This document shows, piece by piece, positions 10,185-31,993 of a stretch of 31,993 bases of DNA (positions are counted from its first letter, which is position 1; each line of letters starts with the position of its first letter). The notes under the pieces are model-generated. The model did not search any database, was not told the DNA's origin, and worked only from the letters and a program-made list of their open reading frames with translations. The DNA is taken from positions 1-31,993 of the IMG/VR virus record IMGVR_UViG_3300044961_000256. One strand, 5' to 3'. Position numbers and translations under genes: made by a program. This stretch comes from a virus.

Positions 10185-10904
10185 TCAGCGGATCGCCAGC
10201 CCCCAGAAGCCCCTGCCATCGACGGCTACAACCATGGTGCCGAGGGAGGCCGTCAGGGTCACGGGCGTGAGCGCAACCGTGACCTCGCCTGGGCTGATGC
10301 CCAGTGCCACGAGTGAGGCGGTGATGGTGATCGGCGTCAGCTCGATCGTCGCCTCGGTCGTGATGCCGAGCGTCCCCAGAGTGGCCGTCAAGGTGAGTGG
10401 CGTGAGTGCCACGCTGACTTCACCTGGGGTGATCGTTAGTGTCTGCGGTGTCCCCGTCAGCGTGATGGGGGTGAGTGCAACACTCACCTCGCCTGGAGTG
10501 ATGCCGAGCGTGCCGAGGCTCGCAGTGAGCGTGATCGGCGTCAGCTCGACGCTCACCTCGGTACTGACACTCAGCGCCACAGGAGTGAACGTGGCAGTGA
10601 TGGGCGTCAGCGCCACCGTCACCTCGCCAGGCGTGACGGTGAGCGCCTGCGGCGTGGCGGTAAGCGTGATGGGCGTGAGGGCGATCGTCGCTTCGCCTGG
10701 GCTGACGCTCAGTGTGCCGACGCTCGCCGTCACCGTGATCGGCGTCAGTGCGATGCTCACCTCGCCCACGCTGACCGCCAAGGTCTGCGGGGTCGCAGTG
10801 AGCGTGATGGGGGTCAGCGCAACGCTGACCTCTCCAGGCGTGACGGCGAGCGCCACGGGCGTGCCCGTGACGGTGATCGGAGTGAGGGCGATGGAGACAT
10901 CGCC
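10185..10904 (-). repeat. Ten tandem 66/69-base coding repeats
   Basis: The DNA repeats with a period of 69 bases, sometimes 66, matching the protein units. Copies are diverged at the nucleotide level, so the array is old or under selection for protein structure. Units of 22 rather than 23 residues occur after the fifth and eighth copies. Confidence 0.8.
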
Positions 10905-26752: not shown

Positions 26753-26767
26753 GCCACGTTCCGTGGC
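26753..26767 (+). terminator. Short hairpin after HTH gene
   Basis: GCCACG-TTC-CGTGGC, six base pairs, 7 bases after the HTH gene stop. No T-run follows. It overlaps the left arm of the 18-base inverted repeat at attP, so the two structures exclude each other. Confidence 0.3.
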
Positions 26768-26836
26768 CGCTGGGGCGCAGAGCGACACAGCGAGGGTTCG
26801 ATTCCCTTCACCCGCTCTCTCTGCGTCCCAGTGGCC
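26765..26836. other. Probable phage attachment site (attP): tRNA 3'-end-like core in an inverted repeat
   Basis: Bases 26792-26816 match the 3' end of a tRNA gene: T-stem GAGGG, T-loop TTCGATT, stem CCCTT, acceptor strand CACCCGC and a T. No 5' half exists, so it is not a functional tRNA. Such 3' ends are the usual crossover cores of tyrosine integrases. The acceptor strand would fit a tRNA starting GCGGGTG, such as actinobacterial tRNA-Gly. It is framed by an 18-base inverted repeat with two G/T mismatches (26765-26782 with 26819-26836). The integrase starts 10 bases further on. Confidence 0.65.
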
Positions 26837-26846
26837 GAAGGCCCTG

Positions 26847-27806
26847 ATGAGGATGCAGATGACAGACGACGAATCAGTGACCGAGTTCGATTCTTTCGAA
26901 CCACAGAAGAGACTCCGAAACCAGGATGTCGTTGACCGATACATCACGTGGTGCACCAAGGTGCGGCGACTGAGCCCGACCACTCTGCGTACATACCGCT
27001 CGAGACTCGAGCACTGGGCCACCTATCGAGGGCGTGCCTCGGTACTGACGGCTACACGTCAGGACATGGAGGCCTGGCTCTCGAGGGAGCGTGAGCGACG
27101 TGGTGGTGGCACCCGTGGGTCGGCTGCCACGCACCAGCTCGAGGGCACGATCCTGCGCTCGTTCTACAAGTGGTGCCATCAGGAGGGGTTGACACACCGT
27201 GACTTGGGGGTACACATCGTCAGCCCCAAGGTGAACAACACGAACCCTCGTCCGATCAGCGATCAGACGTGGCTCTCGTTGTGGGATCGCCCTTTGGGTG
27301 CTTACCAGCGAGTGGTCCTCGGGTTAGGGTTCTTCTGTGGGCTGCGTCGAGCGGAGCTTGCTCGGCTGACACCGCAGCAGTTGACGACCGAAGCGATCGT
27401 CAACTTCCCACGCAAGGGAGGGGGGGAGGACACACTGCGATGGACCACGGTCCATCGGATCTTCGCTGAGCGGCTGCCTCACCTCGTGGTGAACGAGGCG
27501 TGGCTGCCCGAGGCAGTCGACATGTGGCTGCACTACAGGCGCTCAGCGCCGCTGCTGTTCCCTTGGAGGGGGGATCCGCAGGCGGTGAACCGAGAGCTGT
27601 CGAAGTGGTGCAAGCAGGCGAACACAGCGCACGTGTCGCCGCACCAGCTGCGGCACAGCGCTGCATCCAATCTGTTGAGGGCGGGCGTACCAGTGATGCT
27701 GGTCCGCTCCATCCTGAACCACTCGAGCGTGGAGATCACGCAACGGTACATCCAAGCGAGTGGATCTGAACTCGACATGTGGCTGGAGGGCAGGTGGGGA
27801 CAATGA
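26847..27806 (+). CDS. int: Tyrosine integrase
   Basis: 319 residues from the ATG at 26847 (GAAGG 6 bases upstream); a second in-frame ATG follows two codons later. Residues about 25-115 form the SAM-like core-binding domain. The catalytic domain has R167 (FCGLRRAEL), K190 in the beta hairpin (FPRKGGGE), H266-x-x-R269 (HQLRHSAASNLLRAG), H292 (LNHSS) and Y301 (TQRYI). All active-site residues are present. It should recombine attP, just upstream, with a host tRNA gene, making the phage temperate. A clear arm-binding domain is absent or very short. Confidence 0.95.
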   Translation: MRMQMTDDESVTEFDSFEPQKRLRNQDVVDRYITWCTKVRRLSPTTLRTYRSRLEHWATYRGRASVLTATRQDMEAWLSRERERRGGGTRGSAATHQLEGTILRSFYKWCHQEGLTHRDLGVHIVSPKVNNTNPRPISDQTWLSLWDRPLGAYQRVVLGLGFFCGLRRAELARLTPQQLTTEAIVNFPRKGGGEDTLRWTTVHRIFAERLPHLVVNEAWLPEAVDMWLHYRRSAPLLFPWRGDPQAVNRELSKWCKQANTAHVSPHQLRHSAASNLLRAGVPVMLVRSILNHSSVEITQRYIQASGSELDMWLEGRWGQ

Positions 27807-27874: not shown

Positions 27875-28186
27875 ATGGACAACAAGTACGACGACGAGTC
27901 GAAAGACGCCGCCGTCAGGCTGTACCAGCAGGGGGTGAAGACTGACAAGATCCTGAAGGAGACTGGCCTCTCGAGGGCCATGCTCTACTACGTGCTGCAG
28001 ACGAGGGGGATCAAGCCGACCCGCAAGGTGGGCCGCAGCTCCGAGCTGACGACGAGCGAGGTGCTCGAGCAGCTCAGCGCAGCGCATCGGGAGATAGGTC
28101 GTCTCGAAGCTGAGTGCGAGCGCCTGATGAAGGAGCTGTCCACGTGCCAAGAGAAGGCACGTGCAGCTCGCCGCAAGAGCGGCTGA
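27875..28186 (+). CDS. HTH + coiled-coil regulator (candidate repressor)
   Basis: 103 residues from the ATG at 27875 with AGGGG-type site upstream. Residues 8-45 (DESKDAAVRLYQQGVKTDKI, then LKETGLSRAMLYYVLQTRGI) form a helix-turn-helix similar to resolvase or transposase N-terminal domains, followed by a basic strip (KPTRKVGRSS). Residues 58-103 are a heptad coiled coil (EVLEQLSAAHREIGRLEAEC), so a dimer is likely. It lies alone between integrase and a terminator. A CTGTCAGTCAG site sits 12 bases upstream of its start, and related palindromes occur in three early promoters, which makes it the best candidate for the protein that binds them; this is inference. Confidence 0.75.
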   Translation: MDNKYDDESKDAAVRLYQQGVKTDKILKETGLSRAMLYYVLQTRGIKPTRKVGRSSELTTSEVLEQLSAAHREIGRLEAECERLMKELSTCQEKARAARRKSG

Positions 28187-28189
28187 CCA

Positions 28190-28221
28190 CACGACCGAGG
28201 GCATCCGCACCCTCGGTCGTG
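28190..28221 (+). terminator. Strong terminator after HTH gene
   Basis: CACGACCGAGGG (28190-28201) pairs perfectly with CCCTCGGTCGTG (28210-28221), 12 base pairs, loop CATCCGCA, followed by GGTTTCAG. It separates the HTH gene transcript from the RNA gene candidate that follows. Confidence 0.85.
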
Positions 28222-28241
28222 GGTTTCAGTGTCAGGGAGGG

Positions 28242-28270
28242 TTGTCACCCACTGATGTCAGGCCTATGGT
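28242..28270 (+). promoter_or_regulatory. Promoter with palindrome in spacer, for the RNA gene
   Basis: TTGTCA (28242-28247), a 17-base spacer, then TATGGT (28265-28270). The spacer contains CTGATGTCAG (28252-28261), whose complement CTGACATCAG occurs at 20171. Expected start is about 28277, just at the head of the hairpin series. A regulator bound to the spacer would block transcription. Confidence 0.6.
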
Positions 28271-28276
28271 TGGGGG

Positions 28277-28523
28277 GGTCAGGGGGGGCCGAACGCAGAA
28301 GGCGGCTGCCGAAGGGCACCCGCCCGAAGGCAGCCACTGAAGGCGAAAGGGATGGCGCTTGGAGGCGCCATCCGAAAGCAGACAGAGGCGGCTACATCAG
28401 CCGCCGAAGGCAGACGCTGAAGCGGCTCCACTCCTTGGCAGTCGTGTAGCCGCAGCTTTCGAAGAAAGCGCAGAAGGGCATTCGCATGCTCACCGTGAGG
28501 GTGAGCATGCACTTTCCTGAAAG
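28277..28523 (+). ncRNA. Putative structured non-coding RNA, about 230-250 bases
   Basis: No protein-like frame covers this stretch. From the promoter onward it shows two G7 runs (28272-28288), then these inverted repeats: A, GGCTGCC/GGCAGCC (28304-28335) with a symmetric GAA/GAA internal loop and inner GGGC/GCCC; B, GGATGGCGC/GCGCCATCC (28350-28373); C, GGCGGCT/AGCCGCC (28387-28405); D, GCGGCT/AGCCGC (28422-28453) extended by GCT/AGC across a GAA bulge, or alternatively E, GCTTTC-GAA-GAAAGC (28455-28469); F, an 11-pair GCATGCTCACC/GGTGAGCATGC (28484-28510). Linkers repeat CCGAAGGCAG (28324, 28404), CTGAAG (28337, 28417), CGAAAG and GCAGAAGG. Hairpin F probably ends the RNA. Target and function are unknown. 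Confidence 0.65.
28484..28510 (+). terminator. Terminal hairpin F of the RNA gene
   Basis: Perfect 11-base-pair stem with loop GTGAG, followed by ACTTTCC. It may end the structured RNA or control entry to the gene at 28533, whose ribosome site lies just downstream. Confidence 0.55.
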
Positions 28524-28532
28524 AGAGCGAAC

Positions 28533-28715
28533 GTGTACATCCGCACGAAGAGCGGCAAGAACGTGCGGGTGCTGCCCGCAGTGAGGCCCGACAAGGGCTT
28601 CCTCGTCAGGACCATCGACCCCGTCCTCGGGGAGATGGTCGATGGCTTCGCATCGTTCGACGATGCGGTCGCCTTCGCTGAGCTGAACCAGCCCGAGCAG
28701 ATGAGGAAGGCGTGA
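28533..28715 (+). CDS. Small early protein, unknown (60 residues)
   Basis: GTG at 28533, with purine-rich GAAAGAGAG upstream. The product starts VYIRTKSGKNVRVLPAVRPD, has a beta-rich first half with FLVRTIDP, and an acidic helix SFDDAVAFAELN. Its stop overlaps the next GTG, so it is coupled to the nuclease gene. No family is recognised; a small partner of the nuclease is conceivable. Confidence 0.65.
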   Translation: MYIRTKSGKNVRVLPAVRPDKGFLVRTIDPVLGEMVDGFASFDDAVAFAELNQPEQMRKA

Positions 28716-29569
28716 GGGTCAAGCAGCTCGAGGACCACCTCGAGGTGACCTTCAGGCAGTCGTGGTTGAACACGTTCTTGAAGTGCCCAGAGCAGGCACG
28801 TCGTGAGATGTTGAACCTTACCCAGCGCAAGGTCACCGACGCCATGGCGATGGGCTCTGCGATGCACAAGGGCATCGAGCTGCTGCTGTGCGGCGAGTAC
28901 CCACGAGCCAGCTTCGAGGCAGCGATGCAGTGCTTCGACGAGTACGTCGAAGGCATCGATGGGCCCTTCGAGTGGGTCCAGGTGAAGAGCCGCAAGACGG
29001 CGCTGACCTACGTGCGTAGCTGTCTGGTGTCGTGGGCAACCTGGGTGCATCCCCAAGTCAGGCTCGGTTCAAGCCCCTCTATCGAGGAGAGTTTCAACGT
29101 CAGCCTCGAAACAGTCAACCTGATGTCAGTGTCATCCGACATTATGACCACCGCTGAGATCCGTCTCAGCGGGACATGGGATCTGGCTGACGCCACTCCA
29201 GTCGTGTGGGACTGGAAGACCGCCAACCAGCCCTGGGAGGGGTGGGAAGCCAAGCGCTACTACGTGCAGCCGACGATCTACAGCTACGCCTACAGCGAGA
29301 CTCGGGGGTCAGAGCCTCCGCTGTTCAGGTACGCAGTGATGCCCAAGGGTCCGTCGCCTCGAGAGCCTCAGATCATCGAGGTCGAGCGGGACCAGCGGCA
29401 CTTCGACTGGCTGCGCACGAAGCTCACGTCCATCGTGGAGCTGTATCTGGCAACTGATGCTGGGCGCTTGAAGTGGCCGATGATCGACCAGGGGTGGCAC
29501 TGCAGCCCCAAGTGGTGCGCTGCGTGGGCCGATTGCAAGGGAGCGGCGCTCGGCGCCGAGCCCTGGTGA
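28712..29569 (+). CDS. PD-(D/E)XK nuclease (RecB/Cas4-like) with likely Fe-S cluster
   Basis: 285 residues from a GTG overlapping the previous stop. Motifs in order: SWLNTFLKCPEQAR with C25, GSAMHKGIE with H52, TWDLAD with D157, VVWDWKT with D167 and K169, and VQPTIYSYAY with Q186 and Y190, the RecB-type QxxxY. C25 plus C264, C269 and C275 (HCSPKWCAAWADC) match the four cysteines that hold a 4Fe-4S cluster in Cas4/AddB-type enzymes. It is expected to be an exonuclease for phage recombination or replication, next to a putative ssDNA-associated protein. Confidence 0.85.
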   Translation: MRVKQLEDHLEVTFRQSWLNTFLKCPEQARREMLNLTQRKVTDAMAMGSAMHKGIELLLCGEYPRASFEAAMQCFDEYVEGIDGPFEWVQVKSRKTALTYVRSCLVSWATWVHPQVRLGSSPSIEESFNVSLETVNLMSVSSDIMTTAEIRLSGTWDLADATPVVWDWKTANQPWEGWEAKRYYVQPTIYSYAYSETRGSEPPLFRYAVMPKGPSPREPQIIEVERDQRHFDWLRTKLTSIVELYLATDAGRLKWPMIDQGWHCSPKWCAAWADCKGAALGAEPW

Positions 29570-29587
29570 GAAGTTCGTCAGAGGGGG

Positions 29588-29616
29588 TTGACATCCGCCC
29601 TGACGTCAGGCATCAT
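29588..29616 (+). promoter_or_regulatory. Promoter with perfect 12-base palindrome in spacer
   Basis: TTGACA (29588-29593), 17 bases, CATCAT (29611-29616). The spacer holds CCTGACGTCAGG (29599-29610), a perfect palindrome with the same half-sites as the other operator-like sites. It lies just after the nuclease gene and before the gene at 29637, so the replication genes can be controlled separately. Confidence 0.6.
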
Positions 29617-29636
29617 GTTCAAGAGAGATCAACCTC

Positions 29637-30284
29637 ATGGAGGGGTTCATGGAAGAGCAGGTCGTCGAGCACAACACCCACACGGTGTCCTTCACCCGCA
29701 AGGTGAGCGACGGCAAGTTCGGCTCGCAGGAGGCCACGTGGTTCCTGCAGTTCGACACGCCCAAGGGCATCGATGACGGTGAGCTGATCGCCATCGCTGA
29801 GCAGAAGATCCAGCGCTGCAAGAGCGTCGTGCTCGAGCAGCTCGGCGTCGAGTTCACTGTCAACGAGAGCGGCGTCATCATCGAGCTGGCACCCGAGCTG
29901 CCGACCAACACTCCAGCCCGTCCCACGGGCAAGGTGAAGGTCGTCGAGGCTGGCATCGGCCAGACGGTGAAGGCCCTCGAGAACGCCTTCGGCGGTGTCG
30001 AGGTGGCCGAGGATCCCGACGGTGTCGTGGTGCAGTTCCCCGACCGCACCGATCGTGATCCCGACGTGGTGCCGCCTGCGGCGAGCAACGCCATCCCCGA
30101 GAAGCCGTCTCGTGAGTGGCTCCTCGCTCGTCTCGAGTCGCACCCGCAGGAGTTCTACGACAACCGCCAGAAGAAGGCGTCGGGTCAGTACAAGGACAGC
30201 GCCGCCGACTTCAAGCACAAGGCCACTGGCGCTCCGCTGTGGCTGAAGCCGAAGACCTTCACGAAGCAGCGCAGCTTCGCCTGA
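29637..30284 (+). CDS. Probable ssDNA-associated replication/recombination protein
   Basis: 215 residues from the ATG at 29637; an ATG at 29649 directly after GGAGGGG is an alternative. The first 75 residues are beta-rich (HTVSFTRKVSDGKFGSQEAT, WFLQFDTP) and then helical. The middle is Pro/Thr-rich. The C-terminal 65 residues include SREWLLARLESHPQEFYDNR and QYKDSAADFKHKATGAPLWL. The last element (D-F-K-H-K-x-T-G-x-P-L-W-L) is common at the ends of phage proteins that act with single-stranded DNA. Position between nuclease and helicase supports that. No OB fold can be proven by eye. Confidence 0.7.
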   Translation: MEGFMEEQVVEHNTHTVSFTRKVSDGKFGSQEATWFLQFDTPKGIDDGELIAIAEQKIQRCKSVVLEQLGVEFTVNESGVIIELAPELPTNTPARPTGKVKVVEAGIGQTVKALENAFGGVEVAEDPDGVVVQFPDRTDRDPDVVPPAASNAIPEKPSREWLLARLESHPQEFYDNRQKKASGQYKDSAADFKHKATGAPLWLKPKTFTKQRSFA

Positions 30285-30491
30285 TCTGCAGGTGCCCCGA
30301 GTGCCCCCAGCACGACCAAGGCCTCGCCTGGCGGGGTAGCAGGGGGAAAGTCGGACCCTCGGGGGAAAGTGTGTGGTCTCGTTCGTGACGACGGCGCCAC
30401 CACACACCCCTGCAGCCCCACTCAACATCCACCAACAACACGGGCCACGGTGACAAGCCGTGGCCCGTTCCATCCCCAAGGAGATACAGAC
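30285..30491. other. Non-coding gap with two inverted repeats and a direct repeat
   Basis: The 207 bases hold a direct repeat GGGGGAAAGT (30342-30351, 30361-30370), an inverted repeat GTGTGTGGT/ACCACACAC (30369-30407) and the terminator-like hairpin listed separately. No gene or clear promoter is seen. The leader resembles cassettes 2 and 3 only in its ACCACAC run. Confidence 0.5.
30440..30468 (+). terminator. Terminator-like hairpin before 30492 gene
   Basis: ACGGGCCACGG (30440-30450) pairs perfectly with CCGTGGCCCGT (30458-30468), loop TGACAAG, followed by TCCATCCCC. It could end the upstream transcript or shape the leader of the next gene, whose strong AAGGAGAT site begins 10 bases on. 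Confidence 0.6.
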
Positions 30492-30743
30492 ATGGACAAC
30501 GACTACACCGAGTTCTACGCACTGTCGGCAGACGTGCTGATCAAGGAGCCGAAGGGCTGGCTTCCCCTGCCCCTCTACCGCTCCGAGGACCATGGTGTGT
30601 TCCTGAGCTACGCCGATGCAGTCGAGCACGGGAAGCGGATCAAGGCCGACAACATCATCATCACGAAGAACACCGTCTCGAAGCGCATGATCGACGAGCT
30701 GGAGAAGGAGGGCCTCATCCGCCGCATCGAGGTGGCTGCGTGA
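30492..30743 (+). CDS. Small early protein before the helicase, unknown
   Basis: 83 residues from the ATG at 30492 with AAGGAGAT 6 bases upstream, one of the best ribosome sites here. The sequence is mixed (DYTEFYALSADVLIKEPKGW, LPLPLYRSEDHGVFLSYADA) and ends with a helix-turn-helix-like part (IITKNTVSKRMIDELEKEGL, then IRRIEV) that resembles a winged-helix recognition region. It may be a DNA-binding loader or regulator. Its stop overlaps the ATPase start. Confidence 0.7.
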   Translation: MDNDYTEFYALSADVLIKEPKGWLPLPLYRSEDHGVFLSYADAVEHGKRIKADNIIITKNTVSKRMIDELEKEGLIRRIEVAA

Positions 30744-31732
30744 TCCTGTCGCCCGAGGAAGCTGAGGCCCGTGTAGCCGCACTGCTCGGTGGTGGCGTGG
30801 TGGAGCAGGAGGTTCCTGCTCCACCCGCCTACCGCTTCATCCGCCCCTTCGCTGAGGCAGCCAACGACTACGTCGAGCTGATCATCAACGAGGAAGGGCG
30901 GTGGCTGTTCGGCATCGAGCAGCTCGACGCCATGGTGCGTGGCGTCGGGCGTGGCGAGCTGTGCTACGTGACGGGTCGCCCTCACTCGGGGAAGACCCAG
31001 TTGGTGCTGCAGTCGATCGCCAACAACCCCGACAAGCACTGCCTGGTGTTCACGCTCGACGAGGTGGACAGCCTGCTGCTGGCCAAGCTCGTGTCGATGA
31101 CTCGGTCGATCGACAACGAGACGCTCGAGCAGCGGATCAAGGAGCGCAACAAGGACATCATCGATCTGACGAAGCATGTAGCCGCACATGACTTCGGCAA
31201 CCTGATCGTGATCGATCAGCCGCTCACCTTCCGCCAGATGCAGGACGCACTGACGGAGGCGCAGCAGTACTGGCAGGCCGACTGCGACTCGGTGGTCATC
31301 GACTTCTTGGAGCAGCTGCCTGGCAGCGGCGACTTCGAAGGCGTGGCTGCGAAGAGCACGCAGCTCAAGCAGTGGTGCAAGCGCAATGACGTGCCCCTCA
31401 TCTGTCTGCATCAGGCAGGCCGCAGCTCTGGCCCTCGAGGCCAGGCGGCGGGCATGGAGGCCATGCGGTACGGCGGCGAGCACGACGCCATGTTCGTGCT
31501 CGAGGTGTTCCGCAAGCGGGACGACGAGAGCCTGGACGCCTTCCAGCGCCAGCAGGAGGAGAACACCGTCACGGTGAACGTGGCCAAGAACAAGCGCCCT
31601 CCCTGCAAGGTGGGCGAGATCGACCTGTTCATCCACCCGAAGTTCGGCTACATCCGTCCGATCAAGGACGGGGACAAGCACGTGCCAGGGACGAAGCTGA
31701 CCGCCGCACAGGCGGCAGCGCTGCGCTCATGA
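30740..31732 (+). CDS. DnaB/RecA-type replicative ATPase (helicase-like)
   Basis: 330 residues from a GTG overlapping the previous stop. The RecA core has Walker A GRPHSGKT (79-86), a glutamate motif FTLDE (104-108), Walker B SVVIDF (184-189), a polar motif LHQAGR (223-228), and a final VAKNKRPPCKVG segment like the K-N-R loop of DnaB helicases. The N-terminal primase-binding domain of DnaB is missing, and only a short region precedes the core. It should unwind DNA or load on replication forks. It is coupled to the 83-residue gene and to the HTH gene downstream. Confidence 0.85.
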   Translation: MILSPEEAEARVAALLGGGVVEQEVPAPPAYRFIRPFAEAANDYVELIINEEGRWLFGIEQLDAMVRGVGRGELCYVTGRPHSGKTQLVLQSIANNPDKHCLVFTLDEVDSLLLAKLVSMTRSIDNETLEQRIKERNKDIIDLTKHVAAHDFGNLIVIDQPLTFRQMQDALTEAQQYWQADCDSVVIDFLEQLPGSGDFEGVAAKSTQLKQWCKRNDVPLICLHQAGRSSGPRGQAAGMEAMRYGGEHDAMFVLEVFRKRDDESLDAFQRQQEENTVTVNVAKNKRPPCKVGEIDLFIHPKFGYIRPIKDGDKHVPGTKLTAAQAAALRS

Positions 31733-31993
31733 GGGCCTACCGTCTCGAGCCCGCAGGCTGGGGCACGAAGGGGCGTGGCTTCGGCCAGGACGACATGGAC
31801 TGGCTGTGCTACGTGGCCGACCGCTACGGGATGCCACAGAGCCCCGCACAGTGCGACCAGGGCAAACTCGACGCAGTGACCGAGGCACTTGACAAGGTGC
31901 CTCATGATCTTCGTGAGCTGTTGCTCATGCGATGCAACGGCCTGTCGTGGGCCTCGATCGCTGAGCTGCTCGACGAGCCCTACGAGGACACTC
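31729..31993 (+). CDS. HTH protein, truncated by window edge (sigma region 4-like)
   Basis: ATG at 31729 overlaps the helicase stop (ATGA). Eighty-eight codons are visible. The first part (RAYRLEPAGWGTKGRGFGQD, then DMDWLCYVADRYGMP) leads into a helical region with DKVPHDLRELLLMRCNGLSW followed by ASIAELLDEP, a helix-turn-helix resembling sigma region 4 or phage Q-like regulators. The end is missing, so size and role stay open. It contains an inverted repeat GAGGCAC/GTGCCTC (31882-31903). Confidence 0.65.
   Translation, partial: MRAYRLEPAGWGTKGRGFGQDDMDWLCYVADRYGMPQSPAQCDQGKLDAVTEALDKVPHDLRELLLMRCNGLSWASIAELLDEPYEDT

Follow-up and report, generated by a model that had tools for sequence, protein, structure and literature searches.

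GOLLD, ROOL and OLE are large hairpin-rich RNAs, some of them found in phages. The put RNA of phage HK022 is ~70 nt long, has two stem-loops and targets RNA polymerase (PMC9378689). Its binding partner is the zinc-binding domain of the beta' subunit. Phage messages can also carry structured 5' UTRs whose folding masks the ribosome-binding site and so controls translation, with examples from T4 among those reviewed (PMC3014915). The locus described here lies in IMGVR_UViG_3300044961_000256, a 31,993-base virus record that was analysed over its whole length and is referred to as the window. Like the lambdoid antiterminators putL and putR, it would give a hairpin RNA immediately downstream of an early phage promoter, but one of ~240 nt with seven hairpins, closed by a long-range helix (P1), and with no downstream terminator found by a simple scan. 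Like the masking 5' UTRs, it runs up to the ribosome-binding site of an early gene for DNA metabolism, and the corresponding leaders of marine relatives and of the freshwater group of L093 can pair with that site; the window leader, in contrast, is large, does not pair with the site and leaves it open. It is much shorter than GOLLD, ROOL and OLE, fronts an operon and has no Rfam match. A repeated purine motif in the joints between its hairpins recalls the RsmY/RsmZ/RsmW-type sponges, but the motif is GAA(GG) in joints and not GGA in loops, and Rfam RsmW yielded sub-threshold matches only (E 0.66-1.1). On balance, we think it probable that the RNA serves the early recombination/replication operon as a structured cis leader, which is the best reading of its place, its promoter, the lack of a terminator and the recurrence of such RNAs in relatives.

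The genes for the major head protein, portal and terminase lie on the - strand of the window. The + strand carries, in order, the integrase, a small helix-turn-helix (HTH) protein, the hairpin RNA, P0003, the exonuclease, P0005 and a DnaB-like helicase, so that the "lysogeny region" of an earlier note on this DNA is half right: the RNA sits at the border where the integrase/HTH genes give way to the early recombination/replication operon. The features around it are:

26763-27806, + strand: integrase
27875-28186, + strand: small HTH protein (resolvase-type HTH and a coiled coil)
28187-28226, + strand: hairpin that probably ends the transcript of the HTH gene (stem of 12 pairs, loop of 8 nt, no T-run)
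28242-28270, + strand: sigma-70-like promoter TTGTCA-17-TATGGT, a consensus match
28253-28263, + strand: spacer motif TGATGTCAGGC, shared with the next early promoter
28271-28289, + strand: G-rich 5' end, G7 TCA G7, as read in the sequence
28521-28527, + strand: ribosome-binding site AAGAGAG, directly 3' of P1 and largely unpaired
28533-28715, + strand: P0003, the operon's first frame (60 aa and of no family), which overlaps the start of the nuclease
28712-29569, + strand: PD-(D/E)XK exonuclease P0004, the operon's first recognisable gene

The start of the integrase frame (26763-26830) reads ARVRFPSPAL-like and resembles a tRNA 3' end, as it does in L093; attP therefore probably overlaps the integrase start in both.

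The hairpin that follows the HTH gene had been called a strong terminator. Strong it is, but it has no T-run and the terminator scan is silent at 28187-28226; it is probably a non-canonical terminator. The promoter credited to the RNA, with its 17-base spacing, is where it was said to be: TTGTCA begins at 28242 and TATGGT ends at 28270. A promoter scan gave 3 such sites in 5.7 kb against 0.2 expected, and for TTGWCA-N14..20-TANNNT this promoter is the sole match in the window. The spacer motif TGATGTCAGGC recurs as TGACGTCAGGC at 29601-29611, in the next early promoter (29588), making two exact matches where 0.10 would be expected; its consensus, TGAYGTCAGGC, occurs in the spacers of both early promoters and nowhere else in the window. 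The motif is probably a shared operator of a phage repressor, and its presence in both early promoters makes the one at 28242-28270 more credibly real. Transcription would be expected to start at ~28276-28279. The G7 TCA G7 run could, in principle, form a three-layer G-quadruplex; similar G-runs follow the -10 box in the marine relatives L026, L038 and L014. A different element, a short purine-loop unit (for example GCGAGC-NNN-GCGAGC), stands directly 3' of the early -10 box in L011, L047, L176, L235 and L256; it could form a tandem-GA hairpin in the RNA, or be an operator made of direct repeats.

The predicted fold is made up of the following helices, p being the predicted pair probability:

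28279-28287 with 28512-28520, + strand: P1, a 9-pair long-range closing helix (mean pair probability 0.98)
28288-28303, + strand: small hairpin GCC-GAACGCAGAA-GGC (p 0.94)
28304-28335, + strand: hairpin with a symmetric GAA/GAA internal loop, 7 + 4 pairs (p 1.0)
28337-28385, + strand: stem of 3 + 2 pairs bearing a 10-pair hairpin at 28350-28373 (p 0.92-0.98)
28387-28405, + strand: 7-pair hairpin GGCGGCU-ACAUC-AGCCGCC (p 0.92)
28406-28460, + strand: branched hairpin, 6 + 4 + 6 + 3 pairs (p 0.86-0.93)
28464-28483, + strand: weak hairpin, 3 + 2 pairs (p 0.89-0.96)
28484-28510, + strand: 11-pair hairpin GCATGCTCACC/GGTGAGCATGC (p 1.0), no T-run after it

Seven hairpins and P1 are thus packed into ~240 nt, with p of 0.86-1.0 for the main helices. 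The "five or six consecutive hairpins" first noticed are present, as are the symmetric internal loop (28311-28313/28326-28328) and the closing 11-pair hairpin (28484-28510), but what had been taken for a string is actually one domain: P1, overlooked earlier, encloses every other helix. Since the 11-pair hairpin is followed by ACTTTCCTGA instead of a T-run, it is not a canonical terminator. The sequence allows an alternative fold in which GGCGGCTACA (28387), otherwise paired in its own hairpin, would pair with TGTAGCCGC (28445-28453).

The 247-nt RNA (28277-28523) has a minimum free energy of -132 kcal/mol (z -7.67), and 0 of 200 shuffles fold as low; the mean z of 100 sampled 240-nt windows is -1.7. 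Comparably strong 240-nt folds (leader z -6.8) occur inside the DnaB gene (30761, z -6.8) and at 10721 (z -6.3), so that fold strength alone is insufficient for the case. The stretch inside the helicase gene, 30761-31000, has leader-strength folds on both strands (z -6.8 and -6.6). These two stretches, together with two open frames that cross the region (77 aa on the - strand, 111 aa on the +), are what speaks for chance folding of G+C-rich purine-skewed DNA or for an unrecognised short gene. That explanation is scarcely credible in view of the shuffles, of the compensatory change seen in syntenic relatives (described below) and of the two frames themselves, neither of which matches a PHROG family; the earlier statement that there is no protein-like frame needs amending as to the frames' existence.

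The unpaired bases of the RNA are 49% A and 29% G. GAA triplets number 13 in 28277-28523 (about twelve had been counted in the purine-rich linkers), and 10 of them are mostly unpaired. Dinucleotide shuffles give 5.9 +/- 1.6, and none of 1000 reaches 13. The exact short repeats reported before also stand: CCGAAGGCAG at 28324 and 28404, CTGAAG at 28337 and 28417, and GCAGAAGG at 28295 and 28470. A repeat search found a 19-nt unit in three copies inside the RNA, which for that reason seems to have grown by duplication. The abundance and exposure of GAA, the repeated unit and the closure of the domain by its own ends would suit a stand-alone trans-acting non-coding RNA, for example a sponge whose repeated GAA/GAAGG joints would take up several copies of a protein, freed by processing or termination near 28520. 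We regard this as rather unlikely: the scan found no terminator at the 3' end, which coincides with a ribosome-binding site, relatives keep their RNA in front of the operon, and the leaders of most relatives show no GAA enrichment, that of L093 being weak. A trans-acting role would need processing of the leader, which is possible. Of the "RNA gene" that the earlier note proposed, the structured + strand RNA with its own promoter is supported and the stand-alone status is not, there being no terminator before the next frame, at whose ribosome-binding site the RNA ends.

No known RNA class had been recognised, and the Rfam scan that was then suggested bears this out: with Rfam 15, no family reaches the gathering threshold anywhere in the window (best E 0.19, below threshold), and none matches in 11 relatives' loci. 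A single DNA relative of the region was found, a contig identical across 741 bases and thus with no base change that could bear on the window fold. Compared as DNA with phage records, the RNA gave no near or distant match. Viral contigs scanned with P0001, P0004 and P0005, one protein at a time, yielded the near-identical contig only, and the nuclease profile found nothing in bacterial genomes. Comparison of the window RNA by blastn and nhmmer with the leaders in the first set of relatives' loci detected no sequence homology; a 12-mer, GGCTACATCAGC, that it has in common with L093 is probably due to chance. No account of leaders like these came up in searches of the open-access literature, a weak sign that they are new.

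Relatives, some 200 contigs, were gathered with profiles of the nuclease and terminase (aligned with MW202803) and of the HTH protein. Three freshwater contigs are syntenic with the window. The order in L172 and L173 is integrase, HTH, RNA, HTH regulator, nuclease and P5, which is that of the window except for the 60-aa frame where the regulator stands; L093 reads integrase, HTH, RNA and regulator up to the contig end. (The regulator belongs to an HTH-like family of ~225 aa, P0006, which provides the early operon's first gene in L093, L172, L173, L176 and L256, is absent from the window and has no significant PHROG match.) In all three, the intergenic RNA starts right after a promoter (in L172, CTGACA-18-TACAAT), with fold z of -3.9, -8.2 and -7.5. 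When the three are aligned, 91% of pair cells are paired and 11 pairs have both partners changed, where shuffles give 3.8 (0/500) and slid structures 0-3; with only three sequences, from which the structure was also derived, this is moderate evidence of covariation. The compensatory changes for which the earlier note had looked to relatives are therefore present in this group, the window RNA's own relative being identical. The last hairpin of the L093 group (TTGCTCC...GGGAGCAA) includes the next gene's ribosome-binding site.

Beyond these three, hairpin-rich RNA is also found after the early promoter, or after the integrase/HTH genes, in L067, L043 and L047, with other hairpin arrays behind an integrase or HTH gene, and in L176, L256, L229 and L235, with short versions; no hairpin array was seen upstream of the nuclease in MW202803 (Manatee Spring phage). 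In the relatives in which such an RNA was found, it lies directly before the gene that opens the early nuclease operon, as befits a leader. The leaders have a common place and style, but their sequences and structures differ and cannot be aligned between groups, so that descent from one ancestor is not established. That related phages have hairpin RNAs of a different build at this spot argues for a fast-evolving control leader rather than a separate RNA gene, and this is probably what 28277-28520 is, fronting the early message.

Hairpin-rich RNA also occupies the equivalent position in about 30 marine relatives. Among nuclease-first loci, the 200 bases before the nuclease rank in the top 5% of the locus's folds in 28 of 33, and the representative marine loci that were scanned have no Rfam match. 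Their typical build is a tall hairpin right behind the -10 box, a second tall hairpin with a CTCC loop (mostly TCTCC(C/T)) and then the ribosome-binding site. Two-hairpin exonuclease leaders of this kind lie 100-170 bases before the nuclease start in L014, L016, L018, L021, L023, L026, L028, L029, L032, L034, L038, L044, L045, L048, L049, L050, L053 and L056. The second stem, compared over 25 leaders with 22 distinct arm pairs, varies in sequence but keeps its pairing: within a phage 11.84 of 12 positions pair, as against 5.6 of 12 when arms of different phages are combined. Its loop shows complementarity to the phage's own ribosome-binding site over 5-12 nt (mean 7.4, versus 6.4 between phages). 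To judge from these sequences, the marine element looks like a folded leader with a possible pseudoknot between loop and ribosome-binding site. The marine leaders are a separate lead, relevant to what leaders at this place can do and not to the mode of the window leader.

The marine stems also bear on the level at which such elements act. The hairpins at the window locus would form on either strand (- strand z -4.5), and the region adjoins the integrase; an operator array, an origin or a recombination site, with inverted repeats that merely resemble RNA hairpins, would have these properties. We consider a DNA-level element of this sort very unlikely: the + strand folds better (z -6.8 for the same 240 nt), the region lies just downstream of a promoter, and the relatives' stems accept G.U and not A.C (34 against 1, with a mild selection bias from folding the + strand).

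How might a cis leader at this place work? Masking of the ribosome-binding site by the window leader was considered and rejected: the longest complementarity of the leader to its operon's ribosome-binding sites is 5 nt, no more than in shuffles, and the site is largely open in the fold, so that simple masking is not its mode. Action on polymerase is the other precedent. A position directly after an early phage promoter and a hairpin build are what the locus has in common with putL (PMC9378689), and a protein-independent antiterminator made at the start of the early transcript would modify RNA polymerase. But put manages with ~70 nt and two stem-loops where the window RNA has ~240 nt and seven hairpins, and there is nothing evident to read through: a simple scan, which also misses the 28187 hairpin, finds no + strand intrinsic terminator in 28500-31993, and no terminator was found in L172 either. 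We judge an antiterminator of the HK022 type to be distinctly improbable. The boxA of lambda-type nut sites (YGCTCTTTA) has no match within one mismatch near 28240-28530.

The structured cis leader accordingly remains the reading that we prefer, with fold signal, promoter match, position, and recurrence and covariation in relatives as the observations in its support; that the window RNA is transcribed, belongs with the relatives' leaders in one functional class and has a regulatory effect is what we infer. Transcription would start from the 28242-28270 promoter, and the first 240 bases would fold as a multi-branched domain, closed by P1 and with purine-rich (GAA) joints. P1 would end at the start of the first frame's ribosome-binding site, leaving it open, on a message covering P0003, the exonuclease, P0005 and later the DnaB helicase. 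The leader would act in cis on this message, protecting its 5' end and setting the timing and level of first-gene translation; we put forward this mechanism, through translation or stability, only tentatively. The modes left for the window leader would be an open site with a protected 5' end, or action on polymerase. A more ambitious joint claim, which we consider doubtful, is that the window RNA is a highly elaborate member of a phage-wide, unrecorded class of early-operon leaders with a non-masking mechanism, in which hairpins are swapped and duplicated fast and only place and architecture are kept; a protein-independent antiterminator for host RNA polymerase and a GAA-repeat protein-binding scaffold would be examples of such mechanisms.

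If the cis-leader reading is true, a whole group of uncultured aquatic phages has, at the head of its early message for DNA recombination, a large folded RNA that is absent from the libraries. That the place is kept and the sequence is not suggests selection for fast change, which is to be expected of an RNA read by host factors or defences. A concrete candidate for an RNA switch controlling a phage exonuclease is the marine version, whose anti-ribosome-binding-site loop is kept while its stems change.
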